Shown here piece by piece: positions 1 through 12,788 of a stretch of DNA of 51,807 nt (the stretch's first letter is position 1; each line of letters begins with the position of its first letter). The DNA comes from Acidimicrobiales bacterium (GTDB lineage: Bacteria > Actinomycetota > Acidimicrobiia > Acidimicrobiales > Iamiaceae). The translations under genes were made by a program, and so were the position numbers. The stretch spans positions 1 to 51,807 of the forward strand of contig JAOBWM010000102.1 of NCBI GenBank assembly GCA_025463365.1, in the 5' to 3' direction. Below the pieces are notes generated by a model. The model saw only the letters and a program-made list of their open reading frames with translations, did no database searches and had not been told where the DNA came from.

Positions 1-37
1 CGCCCGTGACCACGACCACTCGGTCCTGCAGCAACAT
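1..37 (-). CDS. Short-chain dehydrogenase/reductase, N-terminal fragment (cut by window edge)
   Basis: Only the first 12 codons are inside the window, reading leftwards from an ATG at 37-35. A good ribosome binding site (GGAGGTGC) lies just upstream. The peptide MLLQDRVVVVTG is the first beta strand and the start of the TGxxxGxG dinucleotide-binding motif of short-chain dehydrogenases. It follows the DUF4388 gene on the same strand after a 51-base gap, so the two may be co-transcribed. Substrate cannot be judged from this fragment. Confidence 0.6.
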   Translation of the reverse strand, partial: MLLQDRVVVVTG

Positions 38-88
38 CTCGCACCTCCGGCGGCTCGACCGCAGATGGCTACCAGGTTGCCGCTGGGA

Positions 89-1027
89 TCAACGCCGGCC
101 GCCGATGCGGCGCCGGCGCCGCCGATCCTCGACGGGCTCCACGCGGACCGGAGGTGGAGTGAGCGGTCCCTGGTGACCGCTGAGCGAGGCCGCCCGCACC
201 GGGTCGGCGGGAGCGATGGCGGCGTCGGCGAGCACGGCCTCGGCGGCCAGCACGGCGGCCGCCACGTCGCGTGCATCGGCGGCCCGCAACGCCCCGCCGC
301 CGTCGAACAGCGGCCTCCGCGACGCGGTGGTCGGCGCGGAGCGCACGACCGGCCCCGAGTCCGGCTCCGAACCCGACTCCGATCCCGATCCGGACTCCGG
401 CCCCGGGTCCACGAGCCGCGTCCGGGGATGAACCGGTCGAGCGCCGTGGAGGGGCAGGGCGCCCGACCGGTCCAACTCGTCGAGCGCGGCCACGAGGCGC
501 GCCGGGTCCCAGCCGAGGCGGCCGCGCAGCTCGGCGGCTTGCGCCGTGCCGGCCAGCTCGACCACCACGGCCCAGGCGTCGGCGCCGATGCGGACGTCGG
601 CGCGCTCGGGCACCTGCAACATGACCGTGCGGTCGCACCAGGCCGACAGCGACTGCTCGCCGTGGGTCTGTGCGTGGGCCTCGGTCAGGAGCGAGGCCGT
701 GTCCCAGCGCCACCCGCCGGACCCCCGGTGCTCCAACGGGTCGTGGTAGTACCACCCGCCCTCGCCCTGGAGCACGAGCGCGAGGACCGTGACGGTCTTG
801 CGCCGGGCCTCGCCCTCGTCGGCATCGGCTCGGGCGGCCGCAATCGCATCTTCGGTCTCACTCGAGATCCCGCGCACCGCAGCGGCGATCCGGCCGGCAT
901 CGAGGAACACCGTGACCGGCACCGGAGCATGGAACTCGATGCACCCGCTCGCGTTGTTCGTGCTCGCCTGGCGCAACACCCACTCCACCGGATAGCGGTC
1001 GAGGGGGCCTCGGCGCATCATGGGCAT
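89..1027 (-). CDS. DUF4388 (PATAN-like) domain protein
   Basis: Protein of 312 aa starting MPMMRRGPLDR. The ATG at 1027 has a CCGGAG ribosome binding site six bases upstream; the open frame continues further upstream without coding character. The N-terminal part (about residues 10-60, with VEWVLRQASTNNASGCIEF and then a strand FLDAGRIAAA) matches the DUF4388 pattern. That domain is found in bacterial signalling and gliding-type regulators and is thought to be a protein-interaction module. The middle region could be a winged-helix-like segment. About residues 215-235 are a low-complexity acidic Ser/Gly/Glu/Asp repeat, and the tail is rich in Arg. No catalytic motif is visible. Role unknown. 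Confidence 0.6.
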   Translation of the reverse strand: MPMMRRGPLDRYPVEWVLRQASTNNASGCIEFHAPVPVTVFLDAGRIAAAVRGISSETEDAIAAARADADEGEARRKTVTVLALVLQGEGGWYYHDPLEHRGSGGWRWDTASLLTEAHAQTHGEQSLSAWCDRTVMLQVPERADVRIGADAWAVVVELAGTAQAAELRGRLGWDPARLVAALDELDRSGALPLHGARPVHPRTRLVDPGPESGSGSESGSEPDSGPVVRSAPTTASRRPLFDGGGALRAADARDVAAAVLAAEAVLADAAIAPADPVRAASLSGHQGPLTPPPVRVEPVEDRRRRRRIGGRR

Positions 1028-1450
1028 GGCGTCTCCGGAGGGTGCGACGGGAGCTGGTTGGTGACCACGGTTCGGCGCAGGCGTCCCACGGCGCCCTGGT
1101 CCACCGGAGGTCCGGTGGCATGGTCCCGCGGCCCTGCCCATCGGCAGTAACGGGCCATATGGCCCATGGCTTGAGTGGAAATCCGTCCGATGTCGGCCGC
1201 CGCAGCGATCGCGCTCAGATCGCGCTCCTTCGTCCTGCACGCCACCGTAGGACCATCCGAGCCGAAGACCCCGAGCCGGCGTTCTGGATCGGCCGCGTGC
1301 GATTCGACAGCGGACGGACGGCGGGCAAATCTGCCCGAAGCTCGCGCGATGACCGCGCAGATGGAGCACCGAAGAGGCCCCATCTCGCGGAGTCTTGCCG
1401 GAGGAGCGGTCCCCTCACCGCTAGCGGCATCTCCGAAGTGTCGGTTCTGG
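1028..1450. other. Intergenic stretch without a recognisable gene
   Basis: About 420 bases between the DUF4388 start and the recombinase remnant. Several open frames cross it but none has a ribosome binding site, a recognisable family or consistent GC-biased third positions. The only structure I can point to is a perfect 14-bp palindrome at 1152-1165. The stretch probably holds the promoter of the DUF4388 gene plus decayed accessory DNA next to the recombinase fragment. Confidence 0.4.
1152..1165. promoter_or_regulatory. 14-bp perfect palindrome upstream of the DUF4388 gene
   Basis: The sequence GGGCCATATGGCCC is its own reverse complement and lies 125 bases upstream of the DUF4388 start codon. 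It could be an operator, but it is a single copy and there is no promoter element that I can place confidently beside it. Confidence 0.25.
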
Positions 1451-1585
1451 TCAGCCGCCGGCGACGAAGGCGGCGATGATGTAGGCGGCGTCGCGGTCGA
1501 AGGGCTGGCGTCGTCGGTCGTAGATGGTGGTGGTTCCCGGGTCGGAGTGGCGTGCGGTGGTCTGGACATCTCGCAGCGGGATGCC
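1451..1585 (-). pseudogene. C-terminal remnant of a tyrosine recombinase (integrase)
   Basis: Reading leftwards from about 1585 to a TGA at 1453-1451 gives 44 codons. They contain GIPLRDVQTTARHSDPGTTT followed by IYDRRRQPFDRDAAY. This is the end of a tyrosine recombinase catalytic domain: the His of ARHSD is the H/W active-site position, and the Tyr after TTTI is the nucleophile that attacks DNA. The upstream part, with the Arg and HxxR residues, is absent. Similarity stops where the 19-bp inverted repeat begins at 1584, so the gene appears cut there. No start codon or ribosome binding site precedes it. It is a relic of a mobile element, not a working enzyme. Confidence 0.65.
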
Positions 1586-1602
1586 GGGTGGTGGGTCAGT
1601 TT
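1584..1602 (+). repeat. Left 19-bp inverted repeat of the GNAT cassette
   Basis: CCGGGTGGTGGGTCAGTTT is the exact reverse complement of 2198-2216. The TGA stop of the GNAT gene (1598-1596 on the minus strand) lies within it. Confidence 0.85.
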
Positions 1603-2096
1603 GGTTGGGCTGCGTGTCGGATCATCGTCATGGCTGTCTCGCGGGGCTTGCCGACAGGCTGGAAGCCAACCGACTCGTAAAGGTGACGCGCCGGATTGCC
1701 GAGGTTGACGCTGAGACTCAGAGCCGCACACCCCTGAACCTCGCCGGCCTCGATGAGGTTGATGAGGAGCAGGCGTCCGATCCCCTCGTGACGACGGGAC
1801 GCGATGACGGCGATCGACAGTTCGGGGACGTCCTCAGCGACGAAGCCAAGGCAGTGGCTCTGCTCGGTGTACGCCCGATACCAGGCCGCGCCCAGAGGTC
1901 CGTCCTGCTCGGCAACCAGTCCGAAGTCGCCGTGCCTTGGCCACCCAGCGAGGTACATCGCGTAACGCTGATCGGCCATCACCTCATCAGCGGTCGGCGT
2001 CGGTTTGTCAGGTCGCCAAACCGCCGCCTCGCCAAGCATCGCCGCGAGGAAAGGGAAGTCCTCAGCTCCGGCCGGGCGACACCGAACCTCCTCCAC
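1596..2096 (-). CDS. GNAT-family N-acetyltransferase
   Basis: Protein of 166 aa, a normal length for a single-domain GNAT. It would transfer an acetyl group from acetyl-CoA to an amine, substrate unknown. The acetyl-CoA pyrophosphate-binding loop is RRHEGIGRLL at residues 101-110, preceded by the strand ELSIAVIAS. The usual C-terminal motif ARHLYESVGFQPVG is at about 136-149. The start is a GTG at 2096. The GGAGGAG just downstream of it looks like a ribosome binding site, but no in-frame start follows closely, so the start is uncertain. The gene is the only one inside a pair of perfect 19-bp inverted repeats, and its stop codon is inside one of them. That suggests it arrived as cargo. Confidence 0.8.
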   Translation of the reverse strand: MEEVRCRPAGAEDFPFLAAMLGEAAVWRPDKPTPTADEVMADQRYAMYLAGWPRHGDFGLVAEQDGPLGAAWYRAYTEQSHCLGFVAEDVPELSIAVIASRRHEGIGRLLLINLIEAGEVQGCAALSLSVNLGNPARHLYESVGFQPVGKPRETAMTMIRHAAQPN

Positions 2097-2197
2097 CTGG
2101 GTCAGTCAAGCAGGGCGGCGATATCGGTGGCGGACCGGCGCGTAGTCGATCCCGTAGCGCCACAGGGCGTCCACGAGGTCAAGCACCAGGAAAACTC

Positions 2198-2216
2198 AAA
2201 CTGACCCACCACCCGG
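2198..2216 (-). repeat. Right 19-bp inverted repeat of the GNAT cassette
   Basis: AAACTGACCCACCACCCGG is the exact reverse complement of 1584-1602. Just inside it, read on the minus strand, is GAGTTTTCCTGG. The 120 bases between this repeat and the GNAT start would hold the gene's promoter. Confidence 0.85.
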
Positions 2217-2270
2217 GAGGGGTGCCCCTGACGTGCCGTTGGAGGACGGGGCGGACCTTGCAGACGGGGG

Positions 2271-3704
2271 CTAGCGGATCGGGATGAGCCGTAGGGAGTC
2301 CGTTGCCTGGCCGGGGTACTCGCGCGAGCCCGACAGGACGGCGACGAGGTCGCCGCGCCGGAGCTCGCCCGCCTCGCGCGCCTGCTCGACCACGCGGGCC
2401 ACGACCCCGTCGGAGTGGTAGTCGACGTCGAGCAGGTAGGGGGTGGCGCCCCAGCTCAGGGTCAGCTGGCGGAGCGTCTGGGGGTCGGTCGAGAAGGCGA
2501 GGATCTTCGACTGCGGCCGGAAGCGAGCGATCGAACGCACGGTGAAGCCGGTGTGGCTGAGGCAGATGATCGCGGCGGCGCCCGTCTCCTGGGCGGCCCG
2601 CCACGCGGCGTTGGTCATGCCGTTCGTGACGGCGTCGTCGACGTGAGGTTGCATGGTGGCGGCGATGGCGTGCACCTTGGCGCCCCAAGCGTCGTAGTCG
2701 AACTCGTCGTCGGCGCGGGCTGCGATGCGGGCCATGGTGGCCACCGCGTTGATCGGGTCGTGACCGATGGCCGACTCGCCCGAGAGCATGAGCGCGCTGG
2801 ATCCGTCGAACACCGCGTTGGCGACATCGGAGGCCTCGGCCCGGGTGGGCGACGGTGCCGTGACCATCGACTCGAGCATCTGGGTGGCCGTGATCGCCGG
2901 GCGGCCCAGGGTGATGCAGCGCTGGAGGATGCGCTTCTGGAGGTGGGGGAGCTCCTCGATGGGCATCTCGGCGCCGAGGTCACCACGGGCGATCATCACG
3001 GCCCCGGATGCCTCGATGATGCTGTCGAGGTTGTCGACGGCAGCGCGGGTCTCGATCTTGGCGACGACGAGCGGACCGCGCGGGTGCGGTTCCACCCCGA
3101 CCCGCCGCACGTCGTGGGCCGAGCGCACGAACGAGAGCGCCACCATGTCGACGCCTTCGGTCACGAACGCGTCGAGCATCCGAAGGTCGTCGGGCGTAGG
3201 CGAGGAGATGCGGAGCCGGTCGGACGGGATGTGCACGCCGGGCCGGCCCTGGAGCAGGCCGCCGTGGGTGATGCGGGCCTCGAGGCGGTCGCTCTTGCGG
3301 TCCGTGACCTGGGCCATGACCACGCCGTCGCCGAACGTCACGCGATCGCCCATGTGGAGGTCGACCAGCAACCCGTCGTGGTCGACGTTGATCGTCTCGG
3401 CCGTGGAGGCGCCGTTGCCCGGGGCCAGGCGGATGATCTCGCCCTCGACCACCGGCAACCCCTCCGGGGGCATGTGCCCCGCCCGCACCTTGGGACCGGG
3501 GAGGTCGACCATCACGCCGATCGGTCGACCGAGGGCCGCCTCCACTCGGCGCACCCGCCGGAACTTCTCGATGCCCTCGTCGAGCGAGCCGTGGGCGAGC
3601 CCGATGCGGGCCACATCCATCCCCGCCTCGACGAGATCCTTGATCATCGCCTCGGAATCCGATGCCGGGCCGATGGTGGCGATGATCTTCGTACGTCGTG
3701 CCAT
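2271..3704 (-). CDS. pyk: Pyruvate kinase (divergent)
   Basis: Protein of 477 aa, the usual size, converting phosphoenolpyruvate and ADP to pyruvate and ATP in the cytosol. It starts MARRTKIIATIGPASDSEAM. The catalytic Lys lies in AKIETR (K216) and the metal-binding loop in MIARGDLGAEMP (about 237-248). ITATQMLESM and the C-terminal allosteric-type domain are also present. Two features are odd. The N-terminal motif, normally RxNFSHG, reads RIGLAHG (residues 33-39), so the Asn and Ser that bind K+ in the classical enzyme are missing. Residue 72 in DLPGPK is Lys where the muscle enzyme has Glu; Lys there is known from K+-independent pyruvate kinases. The ATG at 3704 has only a weak GGGG ribosome binding site. 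Confidence 0.88.
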   Translation of the reverse strand: MARRTKIIATIGPASDSEAMIKDLVEAGMDVARIGLAHGSLDEGIEKFRRVRRVEAALGRPIGVMVDLPGPKVRAGHMPPEGLPVVEGEIIRLAPGNGASTAETINVDHDGLLVDLHMGDRVTFGDGVVMAQVTDRKSDRLEARITHGGLLQGRPGVHIPSDRLRISSPTPDDLRMLDAFVTEGVDMVALSFVRSAHDVRRVGVEPHPRGPLVVAKIETRAAVDNLDSIIEASGAVMIARGDLGAEMPIEELPHLQKRILQRCITLGRPAITATQMLESMVTAPSPTRAEASDVANAVFDGSSALMLSGESAIGHDPINAVATMARIAARADDEFDYDAWGAKVHAIAATMQPHVDDAVTNGMTNAAWRAAQETGAAAIICLSHTGFTVRSIARFRPQSKILAFSTDPQTLRQLTLSWGATPYLLDVDYHSDGVVARVVEQAREAGELRRGDLVAVLSGSREYPGQATDSLRLIPIR

Positions 3705-3787
3705 GACCCCAGTGTCGCAGCTGGGCACCGACTTCCACACCGCGTTGGCGTCCTTCTGGCGTTCCCGCCGCCCGAGGACTGGGTGGG

Positions 3788-4198
3788 TCAGGCCTTGCCC
3801 TGGCCCTCGGACATCATCAGCCCGGGAGCGCCGATCCAACGCTCGAGGGACTCCTGCACGGCCAGGGTGCGCAGCGGCTTGGTGAGGTAGTCGTTCATCC
3901 CGGCCGCGAGCGCGATCTCGCGGTCGCCGTCCATGGCCCGGGCGCTCAGCCCGATGATCGGGACGTGGGCACCACCACGGGCGTTCTCGATGCTGCGGAT
4001 CTGGGCGGTGGCCTGGTAGCCGTCGACCCCGGGCATCATCACGTCCATGAGGATGGCGTCGTACGGGCGGCTGATGCTGGCCGCGACCGCCTCACCGCCG
4101 CCCTCGACGATGTCGACCTCGTAGCCGAGCTTCTTCAAGGTGCCGACGGCGACGACCTGGTTGATCTTGTTGTCCTCAGCGAGGAGGATTCGGTGCAT
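3788..4198 (-). CDS. Single-domain response regulator (CheY-like receiver)
   Basis: Protein of 136 aa, almost entirely one receiver domain. It shows the acidic pocket LLAEDN, the phospho-acceptor Asp in ILMDVMMPGVDG (D52), the conserved Ser in GLSARA and the Lys in YLTKPL. There is no DNA-binding output domain, so it probably passes phosphate on or acts by protein contact. I chose the ATG at 4198 because an AAAGG ribosome binding site is eight bases upstream; an ATG three codons earlier sits right on that site. The gene overlaps the end of the hybrid histidine kinase by 23 bases, so the two are translationally linked and should form one phosphorelay. Confidence 0.88.
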   Translation of the reverse strand: MHRILLAEDNKINQVVAVGTLKKLGYEVDIVEGGGEAVAASISRPYDAILMDVMMPGVDGYQATAQIRSIENARGGAHVPIIGLSARAMDGDREIALAAGMNDYLTKPLRTLAVQESLERWIGAPGLMMSEGQGKA

Positions 4199-6452
4199 TG
4201 GTTGCATCCTTTCGGGATTGACCGGCGGCGGTGGGCTCGATCGCCGGTTGGGTGATCAGGGCGTCGACGATGCGCCGAAGCAGGTAGGTGTTGCGGACAG
4301 GCTTGATGAGGACGGACTCGATGCCGGCGTCGTGGGCGGCCTGACGGGACAGGTCCACGGCCGAGCTGAGCAGGAACGTGACCGCCGAAGCAGTGGGTCC
4401 TTGGGTGCGCAGGATGCGGGCGAGCTGCATCCCGTCCATGCCTTCGAGGCGGTGCTCGATGATGACGATGGCATAGACCTGGTCGGGCGAGCCGGTCCAC
4501 GCGTAGTGGTGGAGGGCCTCCTCGGCGGTGGTGGCCTGGTCGACCACGAAGCCCCAGCTGTGCAGGGTGTGGGCCAGGACGCTGCGGTTCACCGCGTTGT
4601 CGTCGACGATGAGGGCGCGCTTGCCGACGAGGCCGGCGAGGCCCTTCTCGGTCTCCTGCTGGGTTCCGACCGGTAGCGGCAGCGTGATCCGGAAGACGGT
4701 GCCGACGCCCTCCTCGCTCGCCATGTCGATCGAGCCCTTGTTCAGGTCGACGAGCCCGCGGACGATGCCGAGGCCGAGGCCGGTGCCGCCGAAGTTGCGG
4801 GTGGTGGACTCGTCCAACTGCGAGAACGGCTCGAAGAGGCGGGACTGCTCGGTCTCGGGGATCCCGATGCCGGTGTCGATCACGAGGAACGCGACCTGCT
4901 CGGGGCCGCCGTCGCCGGGCATGGCCTGGATCGTGACCGAGCCCTCGCTCGTGAACTTCACGGCGTTGTTGGCCAGGTTCAGCAGGATCTGGCGGAGGCG
5001 GACCGGGTCGCCTCGCCGCTGGGTGACGAGTCCGGGCTCGCAGTAGGCGACGACCTCGATGCCCTTGCGGCGGGCGGCGTCGCCCACGATCATGGCGACC
5101 TCGTCGATGAGGTCCACCAGGTCGAGGTCGATCTCCTCGAGCTCCATCTTCTGGGCTTCGATCTTCGAGAAGTCGAGCACGCCGTCGATCAGGCCGAGGA
5201 GTCCTTCGGCCGACGTGGCCACCCCGACGGCGAGCTCTCGTTGGTCGAATTCGAGCTCGGTGTCGAGCAGGAGGCCGGTGAGCCCGATCACCGCGTTCAT
5301 CGGGGTCCGGATCTCGTGGCTCACGTTGGCCAGGAAGTGGGACTTGAGGACCGACGCGTGGATGGCCTCGTCGCGCGCCAGGGCCAGCTCGCCGCTGAGG
5401 GTGTGGTTCTCGAAGATGACGGTGATGTGCAGGAGCACGCTCAGGCTCAGGACGCCGATGGTGATCCAGGTCAGCTGGGCGGCCACCGGCTTGCCGGTGA
5501 CCTGACGCAGCGTGGTGCCGACCACGATGAGGACCGACAGCCCGGGCGCCGACAACAGCATCAGCTGGGTGCGTTCGCGAACCCGCGCGATCCCGTCCTC
5601 GGCGGCGAGGCGCCAGGCCTTCCCGGCCGCGAGCACGACGGCGAGGAACCCGGAAGCGGTGGCCGCGTCGACGAGGCGCATCCGGGCGACCTGGGTCGGG
5701 TCGAGCTCGCTCACCGCGGTCGAGAGCATGGCGATGGCTCCGATCCCGCCGAGCAGCAGCAGGCTCCACCGGCCGAGCTGCGGCAACTTGGTGATGGCGA
5801 AGACCACGATGCCGATGAGGAGGACGTCGCTGATCGGGTAGGCGAGCAGGCGTGCCTGGTCGAGGAGGGGCCGCCCCTTGACGGCTTCGAAGGCGGGCGG
5901 AAGGACCGTGACCCAGCTGGCGAACAGGATGCTGGCCGCGATCATCAGGGCCTCGGCGAGGAGCCGAAGGCGTGCCGCCGCCCGCTGAGGCTTCTCCAGC
6001 AGGGCGAGGATCCCGATCCCGAACAGGATCATGCCGCCGAGCGCGGCGAGGTCTCGGACGGTCATGGACACCGCGACGCCGGCTCGGGCCGTCTCCCAGA
6101 TCGGGCGGGCGTGGTAGCCGGCGCACCAGAACACGCCCCCGATCCCGATCGCTCCCCAGCCCACGCGCAGGCGGCCCGACGCCTGCCACGCGACGCCGAT
6201 GCAGGTCGCCGCGGCGATGGCGGCCGCCATTCCGGCGAAGTTGCCGAGGCCCGCCCCGCCGGCCGCCTCGAGGGCGATGGCCCCCGACACCACGGCGACG
6301 AGGATCCCGGGTAGCGCCAGGCGCTCCCAGAGGGACCGGCCGGCCGCGATCAGGGCGTTCCGAGCGATCTCGGACCACTCGTCGAAGACGGTCTGCGGTT
6401 CGGGCGGACGGGTGCCGTCCTCAAATCCGCGCGTGGAGACCGACAGTGTCAC
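4176..6452 (-). CDS. Membrane hybrid histidine kinase with a C-terminal receiver lacking the phospho-acceptor Asp
   Basis: Protein of 758 aa. Residues about 45-345 hold roughly eight to ten hydrophobic membrane segments with no recognisable ligand domain. The HisKA dimerisation helix has ANVSHEIRTPMNAVIG with the phosphorylated His at 379. The ATPase domain shows the N box LNLANNAVKFT, the G1 box IDTGIGIP and the G2 box GGTGLGLG. A receiver follows from about residue 612 (IVDDN; Lys in LIKPV, K718), but the phospho-acceptor position reads VIIEHRLEGMDG, that is Glu666 (GAG at 4457-4455). This receiver probably cannot be phosphorylated, and the adjacent stand-alone receiver at 3788-4198 may be the true target. 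Start is GTG 6452 with GAAGGTAG upstream. Confidence 0.88.
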   Translation of the reverse strand: MTLSVSTRGFEDGTRPPEPQTVFDEWSEIARNALIAAGRSLWERLALPGILVAVVSGAIALEAAGGAGLGNFAGMAAAIAAATCIGVAWQASGRLRVGWGAIGIGGVFWCAGYHARPIWETARAGVAVSMTVRDLAALGGMILFGIGILALLEKPQRAAARLRLLAEALMIAASILFASWVTVLPPAFEAVKGRPLLDQARLLAYPISDVLLIGIVVFAITKLPQLGRWSLLLLGGIGAIAMLSTAVSELDPTQVARMRLVDAATASGFLAVVLAAGKAWRLAAEDGIARVRERTQLMLLSAPGLSVLIVVGTTLRQVTGKPVAAQLTWITIGVLSLSVLLHITVIFENHTLSGELALARDEAIHASVLKSHFLANVSHEIRTPMNAVIGLTGLLLDTELEFDQRELAVGVATSAEGLLGLIDGVLDFSKIEAQKMELEEIDLDLVDLIDEVAMIVGDAARRKGIEVVAYCEPGLVTQRRGDPVRLRQILLNLANNAVKFTSEGSVTIQAMPGDGGPEQVAFLVIDTGIGIPETEQSRLFEPFSQLDESTTRNFGGTGLGLGIVRGLVDLNKGSIDMASEEGVGTVFRITLPLPVGTQQETEKGLAGLVGKRALIVDDNAVNRSVLAHTLHSWGFVVDQATTAEEALHHYAWTGSPDQVYAIVIIEHRLEGMDGMQLARILRTQGPTASAVTFLLSSAVDLSRQAAHDAGIESVLIKPVRNTYLLRRIVDALITQPAIEPTAAGQSRKDATNAPNPPR

Positions 6453-11393: not shown

Positions 11394-12788
11394 TCAGCGT
11401 CCCAACGCGACCAGTTCTGCGAACGCGTCGATGATGTCGTCGCGCAGCGCAGCGGGATCGTCCACGGCGGCGGCATCCACGTGCAGGCCGAGGTCCAAGA
11501 GTCCTCGGTAGCTCATCGTGGTGAGGTTCCAGGCGGTGCCGGCGATCGGGCCGAGCGGGAAGTTCCCGGTCATGAGCGCGCCCCCGATGTAGAGGTCGAA
11601 GGGTGCGGCGCGCACGTTGGACGTGGCGAAGTCGACCGTCTCGACCTGTTGGCGGGCCAGGCGCACCACGGCGGGGCGGGGGAGCAGGTTGACCAAGCCG
11701 GCGAACGACGCGGTCAGGCCCAGGGCCCGCTCGGTCTTGGTGACGGCGAGCCGCTGGTGGATCTCGGCGAAGCGCGTGCGAGGGTCGGCCTCGAGGGGGA
11801 CGAGGACGCGGGTGGGGGTGAAGGCGTTGCCGCCGGGTGCCCGGTCCGTGCGCGTGCTGACCGGCATCGACATGCGCAGCTCGGCCACCTCGACGCCACG
11901 GCGACGGTGGTAGGTGCCGGCGCCGCCGGCGGCGGCCGCCACGAAGACGTCGTTGACGCTGCCGCCCAGCGCGGTGGCAGCGGCCTTCACGTCGGCCAGG
12001 GGGACCTCGAAGGTGTGGAGCTCGCGGCGCAGGGACCGGCCCGTCCACAGTGGCGACCGGTGGCTGTCGACCACGCCCAGCTGGCGGATCAGTGACCGGG
12101 CCGTGGCCGCCGCCTCCGTGGGAAGCCCGGCGACGAGCGCCGCCAGGTGGGCGGGGTCCCGGGCGAGGTCCGCGGCGGTCCCGACGATGGAGCGGGCGGT
12201 CTCGGCGTTGCGCCGAGTGGCGTCGGTGACGGCGCCGAGGGCAGCCGACCAGGGCGGCCGGTTGCCGGCGGGCGGCGGACCGTCGTCGATCGGTGGGGGC
12301 TCCGGGGCATCGCGCTCGAGGTCGATGAACTCCACCGACATCCGGATCCCGCCCTTCCCGTCGGTGATGGTGTGGTGCATCTTCTGCACCATGGCGGCCC
12401 GGCCGTCGGGGAGGCCGTCGACGACGGTGAACTCCCACAGCGGCCGGTTGCGGGGGAAGGGGGCGCGGGCCAGCGCGACGGCGAGCTCGCGGGCGTCGGC
12501 GTCGGTGGACCCAGCGGGGAGGGTGACGTGGCGGAGATGGCGGTCGAGGTCGAAGTCGGGGTCGTCCTCCCAGCCCGGGTTGGCGACCGGTCCGTAGCCC
12601 GACGTGACGCGGCGGCGCAGGCGGGGCACGACCCGGCTCGCCCGCCACAGGCGGCGGCGGAGGCGTTCGGGGTCGGGCAGCCGGTCGAAGAAGGTGAGGT
12701 TGGCGAAGGTGGAGGAGAGGTGCGGATCGGTCTCGAGGCTCCACATGAGGGCCTCGACGTCGGACATCCGCTCCACGTCGGCGCTCAC
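11394..12788 (-). CDS. Wax ester synthase/diacylglycerol acyltransferase (WS/DGAT)
   Basis: Protein of 464 aa, the typical length. The catalytic motif HHTITDG is at residues 138-144, matching HHxxxDG of this acyltransferase family. NDVFVAAAAGG and SNVRAAP correspond to the conserved later motifs (ND box and the SNVPGP-like motif). It joins an acyl-CoA to diacylglycerol or a fatty alcohol at the membrane face, making storage lipid. It starts at GTG 12788, overlapping the stop of the PAP2 gene as GTGA, so translation is coupled. PAP2-type phosphatase followed by DGAT suggests consecutive steps of triacylglycerol synthesis. Confidence 0.9.
   Translation of the reverse strand: MSADVERMSDVEALMWSLETDPHLSSTFANLTFFDRLPDPERLRRRLWRASRVVPRLRRRVTSGYGPVANPGWEDDPDFDLDRHLRHVTLPAGSTDADARELAVALARAPFPRNRPLWEFTVVDGLPDGRAAMVQKMHHTITDGKGGIRMSVEFIDLERDAPEPPPIDDGPPPAGNRPPWSAALGAVTDATRRNAETARSIVGTAADLARDPAHLAALVAGLPTEAAATARSLIRQLGVVDSHRSPLWTGRSLRRELHTFEVPLADVKAAATALGGSVNDVFVAAAAGGAGTYHRRRGVEVAELRMSMPVSTRTDRAPGGNAFTPTRVLVPLEADPRTRFAEIHQRLAVTKTERALGLTASFAGLVNLLPRPAVVRLARQQVETVDFATSNVRAAPFDLYIGGALMTGNFPLGPIAGTAWNLTTMSYRGLLDLGLHVDAAAVDDPAALRDDIIDAFAELVALGR

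Follow-up and report, generated by a model that had tools for sequence, protein, structure and literature searches.

Mobile insertion cassettes (MICs), exemplified by MIC231 of Bacillus cereus (IS4 family) and mic-qnrD, consist of the inverted repeats of an insertion sequence (IS) around a passenger, with no transposase gene; they are modular with the parent IS, and their transposase can come in trans from a related IS (PMC3913671; PMC2266710). As of a 2008 review of the IS4 family, this modular pattern had not been seen in other IS families (PMC2266710). IS with extra genes between their ends, denoted tIS, occur, for example, in the IS1595 family (PMC7986276). Passenger-carrying IS and mobile insertion cassettes are, as kinds, already known; in our literature search, with ISfinder outside the comparison, no description of the passenger or MIC pattern was found for IS1-type elements.

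Here, we describe a segment of a 51,807-nucleotide stretch of DNA (the window) from an Acidimicrobiales bacterium of the family Iamiaceae (GenBank assembly GCA_025463365.1, contig JAOBWM010000102.1) in which, as in MICs, a passenger is bracketed by IS inverted repeats without a transposase gene. Sequence comparison suggests, with a probability of about 0.9, that positions 1587-2213 are a transposase-deleted derivative of an IS1-family passenger transposon, given the identity of the ends, the collinear remnants, the architecture of the family, and the 8-bp duplications of intact elements and transposase-less siblings.

Structure and surroundings of the cassette

The element is read from 2216 down to 1584, with its left end at high and its right end at low coordinates. 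The following features were delineated.

1451 to about 1586, minus strand: C-terminal fragment (~44 codons) of a tyrosine recombinase, adjoining the right end of the element but in the flank, outside it
1587 to 1604, plus strand: right terminal inverted repeat (GGTGGTGGGTCAGTTTGG), with the stop codon of the GNAT gene inside (1596-1598)
1596 to 2096, minus strand: GNAT acetyltransferase, 166 aa, intact passenger gene (Pfam Acetyltransf_1, E 4e-9) and sole intact gene between the arms
2102 to 2130, minus strand: last transposase codons (TDIAALLD-stop), directly upstream of the GNAT start
2133 to 2176, minus strand: internal fragment of an IS1-family transposase gene, matching the middle of the gene (VDALWRYGIDYA here versus VDALWRSNIDYA in genome G013)
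2177 to 2216, minus strand: left end and subterminal DNA; over 40 bp, identity with the corresponding end of an intact transposon in the same-genus genome G010 is ~85%
2196 to 2213, minus strand: left terminal inverted repeat (GGTGGTGGGTCAGTTTGA; family consensus GGTAGTGGGTCAGTTTGA)

The perfect 19-bp inverted repeats of the original prediction are real and one base longer: 1584-1603 and 2197-2216 are exact reverse complements over 20 bp, a match for which 0 are expected and which was seen in none of the shuffles of the window. The family end proper is 18 bp long (here 1587-1604 versus 2196-2213, agreeing at 17 of 18 positions), and both ends of the window element have the variant base GGTG for GGTA. 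The single-strand DNA fold of the segment is stabler than that of shuffles (z -4.2), which reflects only the paired arms. No target duplication was found at the window copy, the flanks GGATGCCG and CGGGAGGG agreeing at 2 of 8 positions. The palindromic CCGG at the outer edge of each arm had been proposed as a possible target duplication; this was rejected, as the family duplicates 8 bp. These few bases just outside the end are common to the window copy and the copy in genome G015 and are not predicted by the end model, and the likeness is taken as chance.

The arms were correctly described as enclosing no transposase gene, but two transposase remnants between them (2102-2130 and 2133-2176) had been overlooked. 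Their order and orientation are those of the intact gene, with BLAST E values, for the loci compared, of 2.5e-8 and 4e-8. Loci in G013 and G010 gave short matches to the stretch 2133-2216, and reading these loci revealed the transposon. From 2216 down, the order is preserved as left end with subterminal DNA, mid-transposase piece, last transposase codons, GNAT gene, and right end. The remnants are collinear with the G010 transposon, and the window segment thus corresponds to such a transposon with two internal deletions; the transposase gene of its own that characterizes an autonomous IS1-family element is missing from the window copy.

The GNAT stop codon lies, as originally noticed, within the low-coordinate arm (1596-1598). 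Judged from its codons, the GNAT passenger is under purifying selection (dN/dS of 0.24-0.40 for the window gene versus five homologues), and the gene may be of benefit to the host. Its homologues, 74-85% identical at the nucleotide level, are located at unrelated places in other genomes. The closest match, in G015, covers window positions 1582-2129 only, with the transposase C-terminus, the same GNAT, and the right end in a row; more distant homologues retain only weaker traces of this arrangement. The protein matches of the GNAT are family-level only, all below the NCBIfam cut-offs. Searches of plasmid and phage nucleotide sequences with the segment yielded no match, and neither did Rfam in window positions 1-6000.

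The segment had been thought to interrupt or replace part of an integrase. An integrase fragment indeed abuts one end, and its homology to the intact relatives that were found stops at the element, but the other flank is not integrase: the rest of the tyrosine recombinase gene is not on the other side, where a pyruvate kinase gene lies 50-60 bp beyond the high-coordinate arm. In the same-genus genomes G010 and G008, only ~115-150 bp separate pyruvate kinase from the gene across the islet, with neither integrase nor GNAT between, so that the acquired stretch is larger than 1584-2216; in this blastn comparison of neighbors, the extra DNA amounts to ~1.1-1.2 kb, including the integrase fragment. 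Empty sites lacking exactly 1584-2216, proposed as a check, were not seen in these two genomes, which lack the whole 1.1-1.2 kb islet.

The segment is present in a single copy in its own genome (a 219-contig assembly of 4.3 Mb), in which no matching family transposase was found; an rve (PF00665) match there is one unrelated transposase in contig C84. Apart from the window element, the family is represented in this genome by a pair of degenerate ends spanning 49 bp (C25:7330-7378, locus L024), which has no duplication and lies immediately downstream of an 1101-aa methyltransferase-like gene.

The family of IS1-type cargo transposons

An IS with the same ends, the search for which had been suggested, exists as an intact transposon in G010 (L152:1226-4631). 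It has GGTAGTGGGTCAGTTTGA ends and an 8-bp duplication (GGACACCC), and encodes a 291-codon transposase ORF followed by an ANTAR-domain gene before the right end. The family transposase scores 33.4 bits against PF03400 (DDE_Tnp_IS1; cut-off 24.1) and has an E value of 1e-16 against the NCBIfam IS1 model NF033558, where its 61.5 of 100 bits are below the equivalog cut-off; plasmid homologues are annotated as 'IS1 family transposase'. The parent transposons share with the IS1 family an IS1-type DDE transposase and the length of the target duplications, 8 bp here and 8-9 bp in that family.

Of the 397 genomes of the order, 11 have the transposase. The same ends delimit four further complete elements, three with perfect 8-bp duplications (G399, CGCGGATC; G067, CGATAGTG; G296, CACCAGGG) and one with a 7/8 match. 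Elements on alphaproteobacterial plasmids have identical or almost identical ends, an unchanged gene order, and, in most cases, duplications: the Mesorhizobium element shares the 18-bp end (duplication CGCTGGTG), and ends with 2-3 mismatches delimit elements of Hoeflea (duplication GATGATTG) and Acidiphilium (duplication AAGCCGAG). Allowing at most one mismatch, the 17-bp end was detected at 65 places in the 397 genomes, versus 15 for the reversed control, and the exact 18-mer in at least 120 stretches of viral contigs.

From the left end, the parent elements encompass a KGG-motif ORF of 70-80 aa (annotated as 'histone H1' in Mesorhizobium), variable cargo, usually on the minus strand, the transposase, an optional right-slot gene, and the right end. 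Against the defense models of PADLOC, the left-slot cargo of three elements matched RmrA of RosmerTA, that of another SoFic, and that of a fifth PD-Lambda-2 (PD-Lambda-2_B) (L187:6064-7047, L188:2456-3604, L152:1509-2600, L190:1688-2935, and L202:3739-4911). Right-slot genes elsewhere are the ANTAR gene in G010 and a second GNAT in G013. The right end reads TCA AAC TGA, or Ser-Asn-stop, and supplies the stop codon of six transposases and five passengers (GNAT-A, an ANTAR protein, a Hoeflea gene, a DUF2283 gene, and TnpB); the GNAT stop codon lies inside the repeat because the family encodes Ser-Asn-stop in its right end.

Eight elements in viral contigs have both ends and an 8/8 duplication but no transposase match (L234, L235, L241, L243, L248, L252, L260, and L286); in ascending order, their sizes are 153, 200, 290, 359, 616, 904, 1128, and 1142 bp. 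The closest analogue of the window element is L235 (616 bp), with a DUF2283 gene ending in the repeat. The 8/8 duplications around these siblings demonstrate that such transposase-less derivatives transpose, presumably in trans. The original idea of a non-autonomous mobile cassette with acetyltransferase cargo is supported, and elements with the same ends do carry different cargo, the very finding that had been put forward as a check.

Several smaller or atypical elements were also observed. Two facing ends alone, with 8/8 duplications, were found at L221:1501-1533 (G022), L231:1468-1517 (G206), and L259:6179-6214, and with a 7/8 duplication at L208:1501-1540 (G102). These minimal elements of 33-50 bp recur in unrelated genomes; transposition may need no more than the two ends, or deletion may regularly lead to such elements as its end product. 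At L226:416-1517 (G176:C6), family-like ends enclose a TnpB gene (Cas12f1-like_TNB, OrfB_IS605) and no other cargo; the 8-bp duplication is perfect, and the TnpB stop codon again lies inside the end. To our knowledge, TnpB elements normally lack such ends. Finally, an 869-bp transposase-less cassette (L212:1501-2369, G339:C39) carries a dCTP-deaminase-like gene and has a 7/8 duplication.

Origin and state of the window copy

In the parent of the window element, the left end would have been followed by the small KGG-motif ORF, variable cargo on the minus strand, the IS1-family transposase, the passenger gene, and finally the right end. One deletion would have taken out everything between a point just within the left end and mid-transposase, and the other the stretch between the retained mid-gene piece and the last transposase codons. 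The right-slot GNAT gene would have come through complete, the end repeat providing its final codons and stop. As both ends are intact, a related transposase making 8-bp duplications could, in principle, mobilize the derivative in trans.

It is very improbable that the repeats are instead the ends of an IS21-family element and that the GNAT gene was captured by IS21-like transposition. Although GTGGGTCA-TTT motifs are likewise found at some IS21 ends in this order, with GGGTCA(G/T)TT near the ends of 3 of 30 IS21-type loci, the remnants between the ends of the window element are not of istA or istB; their match is to an IS1-type transposase, which in effect refutes the IS21 assignment. Furthermore, the subterminal match over 40 bp is to an IS1-type transposon end, and the duplications of the family are constant at 8 bp. 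We likewise give very little credence to the possibility that the GNAT gene is inherited and was never mobile, the low-coordinate arm being its native 3' end and the other arm a chance match or a template-switch inverted copy. The AAC TGA at the gene end is indeed kept in homologues without the full end repeat, but Ser-Asn-stop is common to unrelated genes and transposases of the family, so that the conserved end of the GNAT gene is the transposon end itself. Moreover, inward of the high-coordinate arm lie 20 bp of subterminal transposon DNA, followed by transposase sequence, and these collinear remnants in effect refute an origin of the arms outside a transposon.

Against the preferred reading, a transposase-deleted derivative of an IS1-family passenger transposon, we counted the missing target duplication, the single copy, the lack of a transposase in the genome and of an exact empty site, the CCGG likeness of G015, and the transposase score below the NCBIfam IS1 equivalog cut-off. 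The window copy may have come by transposition or inside a larger acquired islet, and might still be mobilizable. With no duplication and no matching transposase in the genome, it looks stranded, and we would describe it as a stranded, possibly still mobilizable cassette of the mobile-insertion-cassette type. The chances are roughly even that the element is a completely dead relic that either arrived as part of a larger degraded islet, integrase fragment included, or decayed within one, and that has stayed in place since the deletions, an account that retains the identity of the element and dispenses only with movement of the deleted form. The absence of a target duplication and of a family transposase in the genome, the abutting integrase fragment, and the 49-bp remnant in C25 point in this direction, whereas the ends, which remain perfect to each other down to the variant base GGTG for GGTA, and the similar transposase-less cassettes with fresh duplications elsewhere argue against it.

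Relation to known elements and implications

The window element differs from MICs in having an IS1-type parent with 8-bp duplications, in keeping transposase remnants, in the position of its passenger between transposase and right end with a stop codon from the end repeat, and in the defense-type cargo of the parent family. It also differs in lacking a duplication, a usual although not obligatory trait of MICs: the flanks agree at 2/8 here, versus 8/8 in the siblings L235 and L243. As rearrangement of a flank can erase a duplication, the element is filed as a MIC-like derivative. The family resembles the IS1 family in its DDE_Tnp_IS1 transposase, 8-bp duplications, and ends that begin, as do those of IS1, with GGT, but the parents are 2.6-4.2 kb elements with cargo rather than bare IS and have a single transposase ORF of ~290 aa that falls below the NCBIfam IS1 equivalog cut-off. 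Similarly to tIS, including those of IS1595, a relative of IS1, the elements carry extra genes between their ends; however, their Pfam match is to the IS1 model and not to IS1595, and they have a conserved KGG ORF and defense-type cargo on the opposite strand. Among MITEs, likewise non-autonomous and bounded by IS ends, the family's siblings of 33-50 bp and 150-360 bp would fit, but the window element carries an intact gene. Nothing about the ends calls for reading the element as an integron gene cassette, in which an attC site lies downstream of the gene.

The family of IS1-type passenger transposons is likely, albeit not proven, to be new and is widespread and apparently little described, with interchangeable passengers, many of them resembling toxin-antitoxin or phage-defense genes. 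We see even odds that the window element is a relic of a widespread and apparently uncatalogued clade of cargo-carrying IS1-family transposons, whose 18-bp end is almost without variation, is common to Acidimicrobiia, Alphaproteobacteria, and phage-associated contigs, and doubles as the 3' coding end (Ser-Asn-stop) of the adjoining gene. If so, the right end would be a landing slot at which passengers (acetyltransferases, ANTAR, DUF2283, and TnpB) are exchanged, and the left slot would ferry toxin-antitoxin or defense genes. The cargo matches to RosmerTA, SoFic, and PD-Lambda-2 defense proteins point to small transposons as a possible route for the spread of defense genes. A stop codon built into the end provides a simple rule to predict which neighboring gene is cargo, and, with a single 18-bp end serving as the marker of autonomous and transposase-less cassettes alike in different phyla, genomes are directly searchable for them.

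Unusual arrangements of the ends were encountered as well. In G278:C69 (~12470-12520; L058 and L198), two end motifs ~20 bp apart face outward, the reverse of the usual orientation, possibly as two abutting elements or a junction. At L236:4873-4924, two end copies in the same orientation lie 34 bp apart on one side of an otherwise complete element, as if it had inserted beside another.
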